Assembly: GCF_025291715.1 (NCBI RefSeq)
Contig: NZ_JAMBIZ010000024.1
Location: 1 to 55,800, forward strand
Origin: Metasolibacillus sp.
GTDB lineage: Bacteria; Bacillota; Bacilli; Bacillales_A; Planococcaceae
Direction: 5' to 3'
DNA length: 55,800 nucleotides
The notes beneath the pieces were generated by a model. That model had not been told where the DNA came from, did no database searches, and saw only the letters and a list, made by a program, of their open reading frames with translations. The stretch's first letter is position 1; each line of letters opens with the position of its first letter. The translations under genes and the position numbers were made by a program. Positions 19,600 through 25,285 of this stretch are shown here, one piece after another.

Positions 19600-20763
19600 T
19601 TACTGATTGCTGACGATTCTGTCGAGCAGGTCACTTGCCTCAGTTTCCTTTTTGACGAGGGAATGAGCGTACACATTATTTACTGTTGTAGGGTGGTCAC
19701 CAAGCATTTCTGCTACAGTGATGAGAGGGATATTACGAGATAATAAAATTGATGCAAAAGTATGACGTAAGCCATGCGTTTTGATGAAGCGCAGATTATG
19801 CTTTTGACAAATATAAGCCATCGCATCACGTGTGTATGAATCTTTAACAGGTCGTAGTCCCTTAACTGTAATGAAAACATAGTCATCGCTTTTAGGCTCA
19901 ATCTTTTTACTCCATTTAGCTTTCTTGCTCCAATCATAGTAAGATTTTAGCTCAGCTACTAGAGTACTATTCATATGCACTTTACGAATACCACGGCGTG
20001 ATTTAGGGGTACGCTCACCATACCGATCTCTTGTTTTGGTGATAGAAATTGTTTTAGACATGAAATCGATGTCTGACCACCGTAAAGCCATTGCTTCACC
20101 TCGACGCATGCCGGTTAAGGCAAGGGTGTGAATAATGGCAATTCGAGAAGGGGAGCCATCTAAACGAGTACAACGTAGTAAGTCATTCAGTTCCTCTTCA
20201 GAGTAATATTGGTCAGGTCCATTAGGCGCTGCATCTTCATAATCTAGCTCTGTAATTGGGTTTTTCTTTAAAACTTCCCGTTGAACAGCATAGTTGAGCA
20301 TTGCGATGAAAGGGCGTAAAATATTTTCGATTGTGGATATCCTATTGCCTTTTTCGATAAGTGGGTCAACAAGCTCCTCTTGAATAATTAAATTCGTTAG
20401 CTTATGCAGCCTGTAATGACCTAGCTTTGGAATAAGGTGATTTTCAGCCGTTTCAGTATAATGTTGCAGCGTGCTTGGCTCCCATTTTTTACGGCGGATT
20501 TGCAAATAGAATTTAATCCAATCACTCACAAGTGTTTCGGAGTTCTGTACAAATACAATTCGTTCATCTAAGACGTCCGCTTTAACCGCAATTAAGGCAC
20601 GCTCAGCTGCTTTTTCAGTGAGGAAATCACTACCTGATTTTTCTCGACGCACGCGGCTATGGTCATAAAATTTATACCTGTAGGCATAGCGCTTTTCACC
20701 GTCTGAATTAAAATAATAATAGATACAATCCTTTTTTGTTTTTGTATATGCTTCTCTCGCCAT
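19600..20763 (-). CDS. int: Phage tyrosine integrase
   Basis: 387 residues. An arm-binding N-terminal segment (about 1-65, DCIYYYFNSDGEKRYAYRYKF), a SAM-like core-binding domain (about 75-180, WIKFYLQIRRKKWEPSTLQHY) and a catalytic domain. Catalytic residues are visible: Arg in LTGMRRGEAMALRW (~218), HGLRHTFAS (~330-335) and Tyr in VNNVYAHS (~364). It integrates and excises phage DNA by strand exchange at att sites. The gene sits beside attL and is read toward it. ATG 20763 is used; the preceding bases carry only a modest ribosome binding site. Confidence 0.95.
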   Translation of the reverse strand: MAREAYTKTKKDCIYYYFNSDGEKRYAYRYKFYDHSRVRREKSGSDFLTEKAAERALIAVKADVLDERIVFVQNSETLVSDWIKFYLQIRRKKWEPSTLQHYTETAENHLIPKLGHYRLHKLTNLIIQEELVDPLIEKGNRISTIENILRPFIAMLNYAVQREVLKKNPITELDYEDAAPNGPDQYYSEEELNDLLRCTRLDGSPSRIAIIHTLALTGMRRGEAMALRWSDIDFMSKTISITKTRDRYGERTPKSRRGIRKVHMNSTLVAELKSYYDWSKKAKWSKKIEPKSDDYVFITVKGLRPVKDSYTRDAMAYICQKHNLRFIKTHGLRHTFASILLSRNIPLITVAEMLGDHPTTVNNVYAHSLVKKETEASDLLDRIVSNQ

Positions 20764-20853: not shown

Positions 20854-21353
20854 TCACAAGCGGGTAGACTTACCATTCCAATATGGACTATGTAGCTTTT
20901 TATGGGTGTACTGGATTAATCGTTTTTCAGCAAATTCATATTCTACGTTAAATTGCTGTTGCATCTTTAAAATATCGTTTTTAGCTGTACCATATACCTC
21001 CTATACGCTGTAGTATAAAAGTCGGCACACATGCATGGTACATAAAGTTATTGGCTTTAAACTCCTGATATTGTTGAAAAGGGAAGGTAATCGAAACTAA
21101 TCGTCACTATGCAACAGCACATTACATAGCTCATGACAAAAATCTTGCCATTCCTTTGCTGGTGTTTGATACTCTTTTAAAAATATATATGGCTGGGCAT
21201 TCAAAAACAGTGCTTGGCTATTATCTGGTCAATAGAAAATTTTAATTCATAATTGTAGTGCAATTTCTGTTATATCAAGTAGGGAAAGGGCTGTGATACC
21301 TAAATAGCTGTAAAGCTGTTTATATAATCTGTAAAGTGAGTGTAGTAATGCAT
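20854..21353 (-). pseudogene. Decayed ImmA/IrrE-type metallopeptidase gene
   Basis: Minus-strand translation in pieces gives LYKQLYSYLGITALSLLD, ALFLNAQPYIFLKEYQTP, WQDFCHELCNVLLHS, FKANNFMYHACVPTF and, after a frameshift, QQQFNVEYEFAEKRL near the 3' end. This is the ImmA/IrrE layout, but HExxH has become HELCN and at least three in-frame stops and one frameshift interrupt it. ImmA peptidases cut phage repressors. The intact ImmA gene of this phage lies at 24420, so this copy is a remnant of another element. Confidence 0.75.
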
Positions 21354-21403: not shown

Positions 21404-21429
21404 AACCCTCACTTTTGAGAAGGAGGGTT
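21404..21429 (-). terminator. Terminator of the nuclease cassette
   Basis: On the minus strand AACCCTC pairs with GAGGGTT across a 12-base loop, followed by TTATT. The stem overlaps the nuclease stop codon. Confidence 0.65.
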
Positions 21430-22123
21430 ATTCACTCACACTAATAAAGGGATTATTGGCTTCTAGTTCATGAGAGGTAATATCATTGAGTGCGGTGTCA
21501 TTATCTAGTGCTTCAATTTTTCTTTCAATAATGCTTGCAAAGCTATATCCTTGCTCTAATAATTTAAAGTCAGGCAATGAAAAAGATAATATTTTACAAG
21601 TATTATCACTTAGAAGGTTTATTTTTCTAACTAACCCAGAAGAACCGCTCCAACTTTTTCCTGATAAACCATGGTAAGAAAATATAATTCCTATTTTTTT
21701 CTTAGATGTCTTCAAAAGACTATAAAACTTGCCAGTCCAAGTTACACCAATTGTTTTATTATAATTTTTGCACTCACACAATAAATAATTATCTAATGAT
21801 ATATAGCCTGCTTTCATAAAATCAATGCCAGGTTTATTCAATTTTACAAGCAAATCAATTTCGTTAGTACTGGTACGCACATTCTTATTAATAGTAAAAA
21901 TATTTGATTTTTCAAATATAAATTCAACTAAATTTTCTAAAGCTTTTCCTTTTGTTGCAGTTGATGTATTTGTAGAACTGTTAGTTTTAATGAATACATC
22001 TAACAAATTTGAATACATTTTAGAGTCTTCTGAAGAGAATTTTAAAGAATCAAGAACGTCTTCACCCTCTTCTTCACATATTTTTAAGTATTCTTTAAAA
22101 GCTAAGGCACTTTTTGAATTCAT
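21428..22123 (-). CDS. PD-(D/E)XK (Mrr-like) nuclease, third gene of a candidate defence cassette
   Basis: The 231-residue protein has a PD-(D/E)XK core: Glu63 in KGKALENLVEFIF, Asp90 in STNEIDLLV, and Glu117-x-Lys119 in LLCECKNYNK, followed by a strand and helix (KKKIGIIFSYHGLSG). This is the arrangement of Mrr-type restriction nucleases. The first 50 residues are a helical extension. The start overlaps the stop of the zinc-ribbon gene (ATGA), with GGGTGG seven bases upstream. No methylase is nearby, so it is not a classical restriction-modification pair. It probably cleaves DNA when activated by its partners; this is inference. Codon use is markedly AT-rich. Confidence 0.8.
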   Translation of the reverse strand: MNSKSALAFKEYLKICEEEGEDVLDSLKFSSEDSKMYSNLLDVFIKTNSSTNTSTATKGKALENLVEFIFEKSNIFTINKNVRTSTNEIDLLVKLNKPGIDFMKAGYISLDNYLLCECKNYNKTIGVTWTGKFYSLLKTSKKKIGIIFSYHGLSGKSWSGSSGLVRKINLLSDNTCKILSFSLPDFKLLEQGYSFASIIERKIEALDNDTALNDITSHELEANNPFISVSE

Positions 22124-22485
22124 TCACAAACCACCCTATAAACGATTAAGACATCACTGAAAATATTTAAATTATCAGCATAACCACAATGGCTACATTC
22201 AAACTCACCATGAATATTACCAATAGACTCATAAAAGTGTTCTTCACCACATGAGGGACAGTTTATGAGGAAGACATGTTCAATATATTTTAATTTCTCG
22301 ATATCCTTTAGTATTCGATATGCATCATGAAGAGTTAATGATCCACGTTTAGCAATGAGTCCAGGGTATATCGTTTCATTCTTTTTGAAATATTGTAGCG
22401 TCTTTAATAACTTCTCTTGAGATTGGTGTGGCAAATTCTTGATTTTCGTATTTTCTTTTATACTCAACAAGGTATTTTGTAACAT
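22120..22485 (-). CDS. Zinc-ribbon protein, second gene of the cassette
   Basis: 121 residues. An N-terminal helical segment contains a winged-helix-like stretch (GSLTLHDAYRILKDIEKLKYI, 48-68) and is followed by a zinc ribbon with Cys76, Cys79, Cys97 and Cys100 (INCPSCGEE..ECSHCGYA). Translation starts at ATG 22485 behind GGAGAGGATGA, inside the 3' end of the first gene, so 110 bases are read in two frames. It overlaps the nuclease gene by four bases. I do not recognise the family. A nucleic-acid-binding adaptor for the nuclease is a reasonable guess. Confidence 0.75.
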   Translation of the reverse strand: MLQNTLLSIKENTKIKNLPHQSQEKLLKTLQYFKKNETIYPGLIAKRGSLTLHDAYRILKDIEKLKYIEHVFLINCPSCGEEHFYESIGNIHGEFECSHCGYADNLNIFSDVLIVYRVVCE

Positions 22486-23548
22486 AGTTCATCCTCTCCA
22501 TCTCAGTACTACTTGAATTATAATACTGAAGTAAGTCAATATTTTTTTCTTTATAATTAAAAGAAAATTTAACTTTTAAGGCTTTATTGCTAAGTTCATC
22601 GTTCCAGCGTAATGAAATCCAAGGGCTGTCGGAGCTTTCTTCGATTTCATCAATAAAGTCACTTAATAATTTTTGGATTTTTCCTGTATTAATACATGAT
22701 TTGAATAAATCATCATTTTCAGAGATAATTTGCTTTAAATCGCCTAACAAAGGCAAAACAGTGGAGTCATTTCTACCTGTGTCTAAAACCACTTTAGAAC
22801 CTGAACGGTATTTTAGCTCTTTAGCGAAGACATTAACATGTTCCTCATCAGCATTTGAGATGATATCTATAGTGGATCCAATGTCCAAAGGAAGAGGGGT
22901 AATGTCTAAATAAATTTGAAACCAAGAGATAACTTTACTTATTTGTTTTGAATAAAAGTATTCGTCACCTCTACGCAAATAACCTTTTATATTGTCTAGT
23001 CTTATTTCTAAGATGTCTAAATCACTGTAGTATACCACTATAATTGGATATTTAATAGTGACTCTACTGGAGTTTTCAGCTGTTTTATGACCAGAAATAG
23101 CATTACTAAACTTTAAAAAATAAGTAGTATCATCGTATTTTTTAAAAGATGGTATCAAATTAGTTTGATAAGTCCAATCCGTAACATAATCCTCTGAAAA
23201 TTTAAGAGATGTAGCATCTAATATTTTTCCTTCTTTTAATAATTTATCTAACTTGCCTAAAATAGGACTGTTAATAGTGTAGAGAGTAGCATATTTAAAT
23301 GCCAATTCGTACTCTAATTCTTGAATAATTTGAATAGTTTTCTCTTCATAACTATTCATTGCTAAATTAAAGATTTCTCCAAATGTTTGTGTTTTTTGGA
23401 CATGAACCAAATCATAAGTAAAAATACTCTCCTCATACGTTATAACTTGATTTTTCAATTTCTCAAGTAATTTTCTTTGAGTTGCTTGTACATATGTTTC
23501 TTTAATAGCTGTTTTGATTAAATCTGAATATTTTATATTTGTTATCAT
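22376..23548 (-). CDS. Unknown 390-residue protein, first gene of the cassette
   Basis: The frame is open from 23587, but GAGGAGGGAG lies seven bases before ATG 23548 (MITNIKYSDLIKTAIKETY), which is taken as the start. It has no signal peptide or membrane helix. The N-terminal ~120 residues are helical; the middle (about 140-250) looks beta-rich (YPIIVVYYSDLDILEIRLDN); the C-terminal part mixes both and is acidic. No NTP-binding or nuclease motif is visible, and I cannot assign a family. It leads an operon with a zinc ribbon and a PD-(D/E)XK nuclease, so a sensor or scaffold role is plausible but unproven. Confidence 0.75.
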   Translation of the reverse strand: MITNIKYSDLIKTAIKETYVQATQRKLLEKLKNQVITYEESIFTYDLVHVQKTQTFGEIFNLAMNSYEEKTIQIIQELEYELAFKYATLYTINSPILGKLDKLLKEGKILDATSLKFSEDYVTDWTYQTNLIPSFKKYDDTTYFLKFSNAISGHKTAENSSRVTIKYPIIVVYYSDLDILEIRLDNIKGYLRRGDEYFYSKQISKVISWFQIYLDITPLPLDIGSTIDIISNADEEHVNVFAKELKYRSGSKVVLDTGRNDSTVLPLLGDLKQIISENDDLFKSCINTGKIQKLLSDFIDEIEESSDSPWISLRWNDELSNKALKVKFSFNYKEKNIDLLQYYNSSSTEMERMNYVTKYLVEYKRKYENQEFATPISREVIKDATIFQKE

Positions 23549-23925
23549 TAAATTCTCCCTCCTCTGTGGCATTTTGTCATTAGACAAAACATCACTACTT
23601 TGTACCAGTTTTATGGATATTTTTATAAAGTAAGTATTTATGAAATCTAATGGTGTGTTGAAAGAATATCATTATCAACTTTACGAAATACAACAGCATG
23701 TGGCTCAGTGTAGTTCATATTTTTACACAGAAACAACTGTGATAATAGTAATTCACTTTGTTGTGTAAATATACCTACATAAACGATAAAAAAATAATGT
23801 GAAACATAAATGCTTAATATTTAAAATGGTGATGCTTTTAAAAGACATGCTACACACATGCCCTATTTTATGATTTATAGAAGAAGTACAGCTGGTACAC
23901 CTTTATTCGCTTGACATTACAACTT
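23549..23925. other. AT-rich spacer upstream of the nuclease cassette
   Basis: About 375 bases without a supported gene. A 23-codon minus-strand frame (23647-23718) lacks a ribosome binding site. A small inverted repeat (GCATG..GCATG-type at about 23845-23865) is not convincing as a terminator. The cassette promoter should lie within the first 100 bases upstream of 23548 but no consensus pair stands out. Confidence 0.5.
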
Positions 23926-24402
23926 CTATTCTTTATCGATATTAATGTATAGTAGGTTATCCGCTACACCATGTAGGAAGATTTTAATTTCATATCCGTT
24001 ATCAGTGTACTCTTCAGCTTCTCCTGTTAACATTTTTTCGAATTCTTTATTGAATTTTTTTAAGTCTAACTTCAATGTATCAATGACAGTTAATGTAGCA
24101 TTATAGGCAAGTCCTTCCTTTGTAATGAAGTTTTCTAAATCCTTTATTACAATACGATAACCTGAAACTTTTTTTCCATCTCGATATTTCGCATTTATGT
24201 CATATTTTTGGGATTCAAAAAGAGTTTGCCAACTCATATTTTCGTCAACTTCGATTTCACTGAATTCCTTTTCGACTAATTCTGGTACATTATATTTTCT
24301 TGCATTTTCGTTATAGTCCTTAGTGAAATCACTTAAATTACTACTACATCCAGCTAAAAATAAAGTCATTACAAATGAAAGAAATAATATAGTTTTCCTC
24401 AA
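23926..24402 (-). CDS. Prophage-encoded lipoprotein
   Basis: 158 residues with a lipoprotein signal peptide and lipobox (MRKTILFLSFVMTLFLAGC); Cys19 should carry the lipid. The mature domain is charged and mixed alpha/beta (VSGYRIVIKDLENF, DNGYEIKIFLHG). It is encoded in the lysogeny module beside ImmA and the repressor, so it is probably expressed in the lysogen. In other Gram-positive phages, lipoproteins at this locus (for example Ltp of TP-J34) block superinfecting DNA entry, which is a plausible role here, but I see no sequence evidence for that specific family. Confidence 0.8.
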   Translation of the reverse strand: MRKTILFLSFVMTLFLAGCSSNLSDFTKDYNENARKYNVPELVEKEFSEIEVDENMSWQTLFESQKYDINAKYRDGKKVSGYRIVIKDLENFITKEGLAYNATLTVIDTLKLDLKKFNKEFEKMLTGEAEEYTDNGYEIKIFLHGVADNLLYINIDKE

Positions 24403-24419: not shown

Positions 24420-24905
24420 CTATGTTCCATATTGGTTATACCATTCAAAAAACTCTAAAACGCCTAATGGTTCAAAACAAATTGTAAAATTATCGATCGA
24501 TACAGATAAACCGTACTTACTTTCATACCATTCAAGCGCAGCTTCCAAAAATTCTTCTGTCACATTTAAATAATCTGCCAGTTCATAACGATTTCTTATA
24601 TGTAACTTATGGGCTTGTATAATTTTCGATAATGGTACAAGCTTTTTATATGCCCATCTGCGAGCATTAAGTTCTTGTTTGCGGCTGACTACATTCTTTA
24701 AGTCGAGTATATCCCCTGAACTAGTATGGTAATGCCCGATCTCTTCAGCAAGGACACAAGCCTTTTCGATTTGTGAAGGTATATGTTTATTAATCCATAT
24801 AACATTGTCTGCATAAAGACCTTTTGTAGTATAAGGCATCCACTTTTCAAAAATACGAATGTCTAACTGTTCGGCTTCATACATTAAATTTTCATAAAGC
24901 AACAT
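24420..24905 (-). CDS. ImmA/IrrE-family metallopeptidase
   Basis: The ribosome binding site AAGGGGTGA favours ATG 24905 (MLLYENLMYE), giving 161 residues; a GTG at 24914 is the alternative and would overlap the repressor stop. The zinc-site region reads CVLAEEIGHYHTSSGDI (about 50-67), the phage-type ImmA variant with E-E-x-G-H. The C-terminal part has a helical bundle with RNRYELADYLNVTEEFLEAAL. ImmA proteins cleave the adjacent CI-like repressor upon DNA damage or element-specific signals. It is directly downstream of the repressor, as in ICEBs1 and many phages. Confidence 0.88.
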   Translation of the reverse strand: MLLYENLMYEAEQLDIRIFEKWMPYTTKGLYADNVIWINKHIPSQIEKACVLAEEIGHYHTSSGDILDLKNVVSRKQELNARRWAYKKLVPLSKIIQAHKLHIRNRYELADYLNVTEEFLEAALEWYESKYGLSVSIDNFTICFEPLGVLEFFEWYNQYGT

Positions 24906-24910
24906 TCGTA

Positions 24911-25264
24911 TCACCCCTTGTTTTTCCGCTGAGACCGTACAAATGCCTTGAAATCTTCAATTGTTTTTAGTTCCTCTTCTGTCCATTCGTCACCTTCTTT
25001 GTGTGCTGCGATGGTTTGTATTTCGTAATCATCTACGGTGTTTTGATTGTCAGTACGTCCAAGCAAATAATCAACAGAAACTCCGAAAAAGTCAGCTATT
25101 ATTGACAAGGTTTCTGGCGGAGGGGTTTTAGTTCCATTTTCATAAGCGGTGTACGTTGTTCTTGCTACTCCTATTTTTTCAGCTACATAAGATTGAGTAT
25201 ATTGTGAATTCGTTTTTTTGATAGATTCTCTACATTTTTTCAATCTGTTAGCGAAAACATCCAT
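24911..25264 (-). CDS. CI-type phage repressor (XRE family)
   Basis: AGGGGGGAT precedes ATG 25264 (MDVFANRLKKC), preferred over ATG 25285, giving 117 residues. An N-terminal HTH is clear: YTQSYVAEKIGVARTTYTAYENG, then PETLSIIADFFGVSVDYLLG (about 20-70). The C-terminal tail is short and acidic and lacks a LexA-like peptidase domain, in line with inactivation by the neighbouring ImmA rather than self-cleavage. It should bind the GTTCC..GGAAC operators in the intergenic region and keep the phage silent. Confidence 0.9.
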   Translation of the reverse strand: MDVFANRLKKCRESIKKTNSQYTQSYVAEKIGVARTTYTAYENGTKTPPPETLSIIADFFGVSVDYLLGRTDNQNTVDDYEIQTIAAHKEGDEWTEEELKTIEDFKAFVRSQRKNKG

Positions 25265-25285
25265 TTCTATCCCCCCTATTAACAA

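Follow-up and report, generated by a model that had tools for sequence, protein, structure and literature searches.

A three-gene cassette lies within a prophage of Metasolibacillus sp., in a 55,800-nucleotide stretch of contig NZ_JAMBIZ010000024.1 (here called the window), between the integrase and the lysogeny/repressor block. Its genes, which we call A, B and C, overlap one another on the minus strand. On balance, we infer that the trio is probably a prophage-borne defence (superinfection exclusion) cassette of three proteins, in which a DNA-clamp sensor, A, would control a nuclease, C, through B. More tentatively, and with rather more doubt than belief, we propose that it represents a class of phage defence not described before: a DNA-clasping sensor of the RdgC/CENP-N/RexA fold would license an Mrr-type nuclease via a winged-helix/zinc-ribbon adaptor, and exchangeable first proteins would define subtypes. 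The sequence confirmed the operon as the original prediction had drawn it, with the same coordinates, sizes and overlaps of 110 and 4 bases:

23548..22376, minus strand: gene A, 390 amino acids, predicted RdgC/CENP-N/RexA-fold DNA-binding protein (proposed sensor/clamp)
22485..22120, minus strand: gene B, 121 amino acids, with a CxxC...CxxC motif, predicted winged-helix plus zinc-ribbon protein (proposed adaptor)
22123..21428, minus strand: gene C, 231 amino acids, Mrr-like PD-(D/E)XK nuclease (proposed effector)
22376..22485, minus strand: A/B overlap of 110 bases, B in the +1 frame of A (translation, sequence)
23557..23563, minus strand: ribosome-binding site of A, AGGAGGG (sequence)
22493..22499, minus strand: ribosome-binding site of B, GGAGAGG, within the A codons of the MERMNY motif (sequence)
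21406..21423, minus strand: terminator-like hairpin 3' of C (hairpin scan; one found, 1.8 expected in shuffles of the region)

Outside the window, too, the three genes occur together. Searches of 50,697 phage records by tblastn, with A and with C, returned the same seven records, all from Staphylococcus phages; in Staphylococcus phage Henu2 the trio corresponds to gp12, gp13 and gp14 and adjoins the integrase. Scans of IMG/VR virus contigs found 15 loci with an alignment of A and 17 with an alignment of C, and A, B and C are present in 15/15 and 17/17. Going by the listed names, the loci come from 21 distinct contigs; in 8 of these B is identical to that of Henu2, and the 8 represent one lineage of near-identical Staphylococcus phages. 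A scan of 84,980 species genomes with the C alignment, which is pattern-based and gives a lower bound on the occurrence of the trio, yielded 39 loci. A, B and C stand in order at 37 of them, and C is found with B at 38; in the two exceptions C is truncated near the contig start (L074) or the contig begins within B (L083). Conservation of the trio elsewhere, on which the original prediction had staked its reading, is thus borne out on 21/21 virus contigs and at 37/39 genome loci. In the genome scan the hosts come from the Bacilli, Clostridia and Lachnospiraceae, with a Lactobacillus and one Fusobacteriaceae genome besides; several of these genomes are metagenome bins, and the carriers include gut Clostridia and Lachnospiraceae. 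Weak genome matches (L007, L011-L013, L017-L020) were discarded, as A and B were not found within about 1.5 kb.

Closer to the host, a search of 261 genomes of the family with A returned as true members two genomes besides that of the window, while G066, a genome of the same species, gave no match to A; a search of 398 genomes of the class with C returned as true members, again besides that of the window, G603 and a distant genome, G389. The system seems rare, since among 398 genomes of the phylum only that of the window contained the PHROGs family phrog_6350, which includes C, at expectation values (E) up to 1e-10.

Selection and co-inheritance were examined on the same loci. Between the window and a 74%-identical relative, the ratio of non-synonymous to synonymous substitution rates (dN/dS) is about 0.06 for A outside the overlap, with the synonymous rate saturated, 0.17 for B outside the overlap and 0.15 for C. 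From these ratios and from recurrence in many genomes, the sequences indicate that the trio is a real unit, beyond chance. Pairwise distances over 34 loci correlate strongly between the genes (r = 0.89 for A-B, 0.88 for A-C and 0.83 for B-C; 0/2000 permutations as high), for which the common ancestry of linked genes alone would suffice. A compact operon with a nuclease and a patchy distribution would also be expected if C were the toxin of a toxin-antitoxin or addiction unit. We regard this as very improbable, given the presence of three genes together at 37 of the 39 genome loci; usual antitoxins are, moreover, far smaller than A, the largest of the three partners, which counts against such a unit. 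Split frames occur at four of the 39 genome loci (L064, L066, L090, L091), with A cut by the contig start in L075, and in two virus contigs (L034/L041, L051), with C cut at the contig end in one (L027/L049). Where A or C frames are broken (L034/L041, L051, L064, L066, L090, L091), this suggests decay or a cost in some hosts, or else assembly errors.

The arrangement of the frames is conserved along with the genes. Relative to A, B is read in the +1 frame at 45/45 distinct loci, and the A/B overlap spans 32-110 nucleotides at 44 of these; at the remaining locus, L066, the A frame is broken. In the window, B and C share the four bases ATGA. Together with the ribosome-binding site inside A, the A/B overlap suggests translational coupling at most, as judged from the sequence. 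Purine-rich sites like GGAGAGG also precede the B start in other trio loci, a count that is biased because the choice of starts favoured such sites. We considered a programmed A-to-B frameshift and found it unneeded, since B possesses its own start and ribosome site. The position of the hairpin after C supports a terminator, its number not being significant by itself. A promoter scan of the region gave 32 sites against 26.4 expected, and no promoter is claimed.

A second subtype of the cassette, with the same gene order, was found at four loci, in genome G389 and on three IMG/VR contigs:

L117:3447-5765, second-subtype locus
L118:3460-5756, second-subtype locus
L119:3427-5762, second-subtype locus
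L016:1336-3537, second-subtype locus

Its first protein has about 384-429 residues, the start not being settled, and belongs to phrog_6078 in L117-L119; its gene and B overlap here too. In hhalign comparisons of the two subtypes, the first protein against A reached 0.5%, which amounts to no profile similarity, and B (96.6%) and C (99.7%) are clearly related. The first protein showed no detectable kinship to RexA (2.9%), and neither the first nor the third gene had matches in named phages. Since the second subtype retains B and C with a first protein not relatable to A by sequence, the adaptor-nuclease pair B-C appears to be the constant part of the cassette, and the first protein would have been either exchanged or diverged beyond recognition. 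By the same pattern, what is sensed may depend on the first protein.

Gene C carries the clearest family assignment. It matches Mrr_cat (PF04471) at 21.7 bits, just above the curated cut-off of 21, and Glu63, Asp90 and Glu117-x-Lys119 stand where the original prediction had placed the PD-(D/E)XK residues. By this score and these residues C belongs to the Mrr_cat nuclease family, with cleavage as its predicted activity. E63, D90, E117 and K119 are present in 39/39 non-redundant members of at least 200 amino acids. Loci were picked by the pattern NxR..NEID in the genome scan and by ECKNY and NEID in the virus scan with C; the conservation of N81, R83 and N87-D90 was therefore partly selected by the scan patterns, whereas E63 is in none of them and E117/K119 lie outside the genome-scan pattern. 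In PHROGs, C falls into phrog_18586 and phrog_6350, families listed as of unknown function, and its profile found zero matches among sequences of solved structures at E up to 1.

An Mrr_cat nuclease raises the alternative of a type IV-like restriction system, in which the complex would cut modified (methylated or hypermodified) phage DNA with C as the nuclease and A and B as DNA readers. The predicted DNA-binding type of B would agree with this, and so does the scan of seven window proteins, those of the cassette and its surroundings, in which no methylase appeared. What the original prediction said of a missing methylase holds for those seven proteins, which are the whole scope of the scan. 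We nevertheless consider type IV-like restriction unlikely, as no known modified-base reader domain was recognised and A lacks a Pfam family, its predicted fold being nearest to RdgC-like proteins.

The original prediction had described A as a protein of no recognisable family. This stands at the level of sequence, where A matched zero Pfam or NCBIfam families at E up to 1 and falls into a PHROGs family of unknown function (phrog_17559), and is qualified at the level of structure. In a fold search with the predicted structure, which barely probes the N-terminal helices of A, the best matches were RdgC and CENP-N/Iml3, with a weak match to lambda RexA; all of these are DNA-binding proteins and belong to one fold group. 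A thus probably adopts an RdgC/CENP-N/RexA-type fold, a moderate and not a certain match by modelling. Profile alignments with hhalign gave a probability of 0.7% for A against six RdgC sequences and no profile similarity for A against RexA; the control, RdgC against RexA, was likewise blank, so these alignments cannot decide the matter. A profile search of A against sequences of solved structures returned only designed repeat (Pizza) proteins, in matches that spanned 17 profile positions and that we took as chance, and A had no match in 72,556 plasmid records.

The predicted fold of A could also point to a phage recombination or DNA-repair module, in which an RdgC-like protein and a nuclease serve the phage's own replication. 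RdgC homologues occur in 430/50,697 phage records; of the 20 listed, 15 bear RdgC, recombination or exonuclease names. We consider this reading also unlikely, by a hair more so than type IV-like restriction: in the window the trio sits within the integrase-repressor block and on the minus strand, at a distance from the phage genes beyond 28 kb, which run in the opposite direction; bacterial contigs also carry it beside genes such as a type I HsdR or a UG31 reverse transcriptase; and the family scan of A, B and C revealed no annealase or recombinase. A further alternative is a module for lysis-lysogeny control, as proposed for RexA, with defence as a by-product; RexA biases the lambda switch (PMC11077077). 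The window trio does lie near the repressor block. We think such a module improbable, because a nuclease with fully conserved catalytic residues is hard to fit to a switch and some copies adjoin non-phage genes.

By modelling, gene B looks like a winged helix plus, usually, a zinc ribbon. Family scans (Pfam, NCBIfam) gave only weak zinc-ribbon matches below curated cut-offs, and its profile found weak matches among sequences of solved structures, the best being eS25 at 0.0021. The zinc ribbon named in the original prediction is supported for the window's B and, by a CxxC...CxxC motif, for 32 of 39 B proteins; since CxxC is wholly absent in 3 of the 39, among them Henu2 B, the ribbon is by its sequence distribution usual in B and not essential to the cassette.

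From these predicted parts we propose the following course of events. A would clasp DNA in the manner proposed for RdgC and RexA, as a clamp that is open or closed, and would recognise a structure or protein-DNA complex formed by invading phage DNA as it replicates or recombines. B is a probable DNA-binding adaptor; its synthesis would be tied to that of A, and it would connect A to C and hold C silent until A detects an invader. C would then cut DNA, either the phage's or also the cell's, and the invader would fail. Self would be spared through control of C activation and not through marking of DNA, as no methylase was found among the scanned genes near the cassette. Gene linkage, coupling signals, the conserved active site and the predicted folds each have evidence of their own; DNA binding by A, an A-B-C complex, silence before infection, cleavage and defence are the steps that we infer. 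Lambda exclusion is argued, in PMC11077077, not to depend primarily on DNA binding by RexA, and by analogy the clamp may therefore be more a platform than a detector.

Two findings weigh against a defence cassette headed by a clamp sensor. The fold match of A is only moderate, given the Foldseek template-modelling (TM) scores, and the neighbourhood gives no significant enrichment in defence genes. As a control for 97 neighbour proteins of the trio we took 90 proteins encoded in ten regions chosen arbitrarily from four genomes. Strong PADLOC matches were seen for at least 4/97 neighbours versus 0/90 control proteins (Fisher P 0.12). At 1e-10 the neighbours matched 60 families and the controls 10, a gap that arises partly from multiple models per gene (23, 10 and 9 models on three genes). 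The defence-island statistic was rejected as proof and enrichment is not claimed, because PADLOC matches arise in control regions too; some of the latter are presumably housekeeping paralogues. The trio does adjoin, in single bacterial contigs, a UG31 reverse transcriptase or a PLD-SNF2 helicase, and a type I HsdR gene lies about 1.3 kb off in another; recurrence near defence genes, which the original prediction had suggested looking for, is seen in these individual cases, with no significant enrichment. Four of the 97 neighbours share a partial PADLOC OloA match, for example at the Clostridia loci L063:4297-6144 and L067:7809-9584; these are at least partly closely related loci. Nine of the 97 match Phage_integrase and three Resolvase, alongside many non-phage families. 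Among 14 chosen phage records (13 of the 21 IMG/VR contigs plus Henu2), a tyrosine integrase domain lies within 2 kb of the trio in 6, more than 13 kb away in 5 and was not found in 3; in L038, one of these three, a serine recombinase gene adjoins the trio.

The surroundings of the cassette in the window are as follows:

19600-20763: integrase
23926-24402, minus strand: lipoprotein-like gene, no Pfam match over the cut-off, between the cassette and the M78 gene
24420-24914, minus strand: M78 (ImmA/IrrE-type) peptidase gene (family scan), between A and the helix-turn-helix (HTH) gene
24911-25285, minus strand: repressor-like HTH gene (family scan), not directly adjacent to A

The placement between integrase and repressor given in the original prediction holds for position, with the lipoprotein-like and M78 genes intervening between A and the repressor. 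The lipoprotein-like gene is a candidate additional lysogenic-conversion gene. The M78 and HTH genes overlap by 4 bases and resemble an induction switch of the ImmA-ImmR type. A decayed M78 (ImmA/IrrE-type) peptidase gene (20875-21321, minus strand) lies directly downstream of the cassette, and its intact homologues (44% and 41% identical) come after the trio in L003 and L022. In the closest relative (L003:4234-4644, L005:728-1138), the cassette starts about 350 bases behind a same-strand repressor-like HTH gene, with no lipoprotein gene of at least 80 amino acids between them.

If our reading is right, a fold used in recombination control, lambda exclusion and the kinetochore would also be coupled to a nuclease for immunity. 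A DNA-binding fold similar to that of RexA, combined with a readable output in the form of DNA cleavage in place of a membrane partner, would make it easier to find out what clamps of this kind detect. Because neither A nor C has a model in PADLOC 2.0.0, the cassette may contribute to phage resistance that tools of this type miss.

In line with the original prediction, the trio does not correspond to a known defence system: among PADLOC 2.0.0 systems A and C match 0 families at E up to 1, and B matches only HEC-08 (0.0074) and Cas12u3 (0.15), both over the zinc ribbon. We found no description of the trio in open-access papers, preprints being hardly covered. Its nearest counterpart is Henu2 gp12-gp14, annotated as hypothetical proteins, which have the same order, overlaps and integrase-adjacent position; A is 27% and C 35% identical to those of the window, and Henu2 B lacks the zinc cysteines. 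In lambda RexA-RexB, the prophage exclusion factor RexA is a weak match to the predicted fold of A and has no profile similarity to it, and its membrane channel partner RexB is absent from the trio, where the partners are a modelled winged-helix/zinc-ribbon protein and an Mrr_cat nuclease. RexAB exclusion traces to Benzer's rII work, and whether exclusion is the true function of RexA is still debated (PMC11077077). RdgC differs in that its gene in E. coli is a solitary one in the vicinity of mak, araJ and sbcCD, whereas A is linked to B and C and carries an extra N-terminal helical part, with no profile match between the two. Judged by sequence, the trio is thus not RexAB (RexB being absent), not RdgC and not a PADLOC 2.0.0 system. 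CENP-N/CENP-L (Chl4/Iml3) are centromere proteins of the eukaryotic inner kinetochore, and a fold in common with A would imply no shared function. Mrr-type restriction endonucleases have the catalytic domain in common with C. Mrr is usually a single protein with its own DNA-reading domain; C consists of the nuclease domain with short flanks and has B alongside at 38/39 genome loci and both A and B at 37/39. The cassette would thus fall among prophage-encoded nuclease-effector defence cassettes, with the proposed DNA-clamp sensor as its unusual element.
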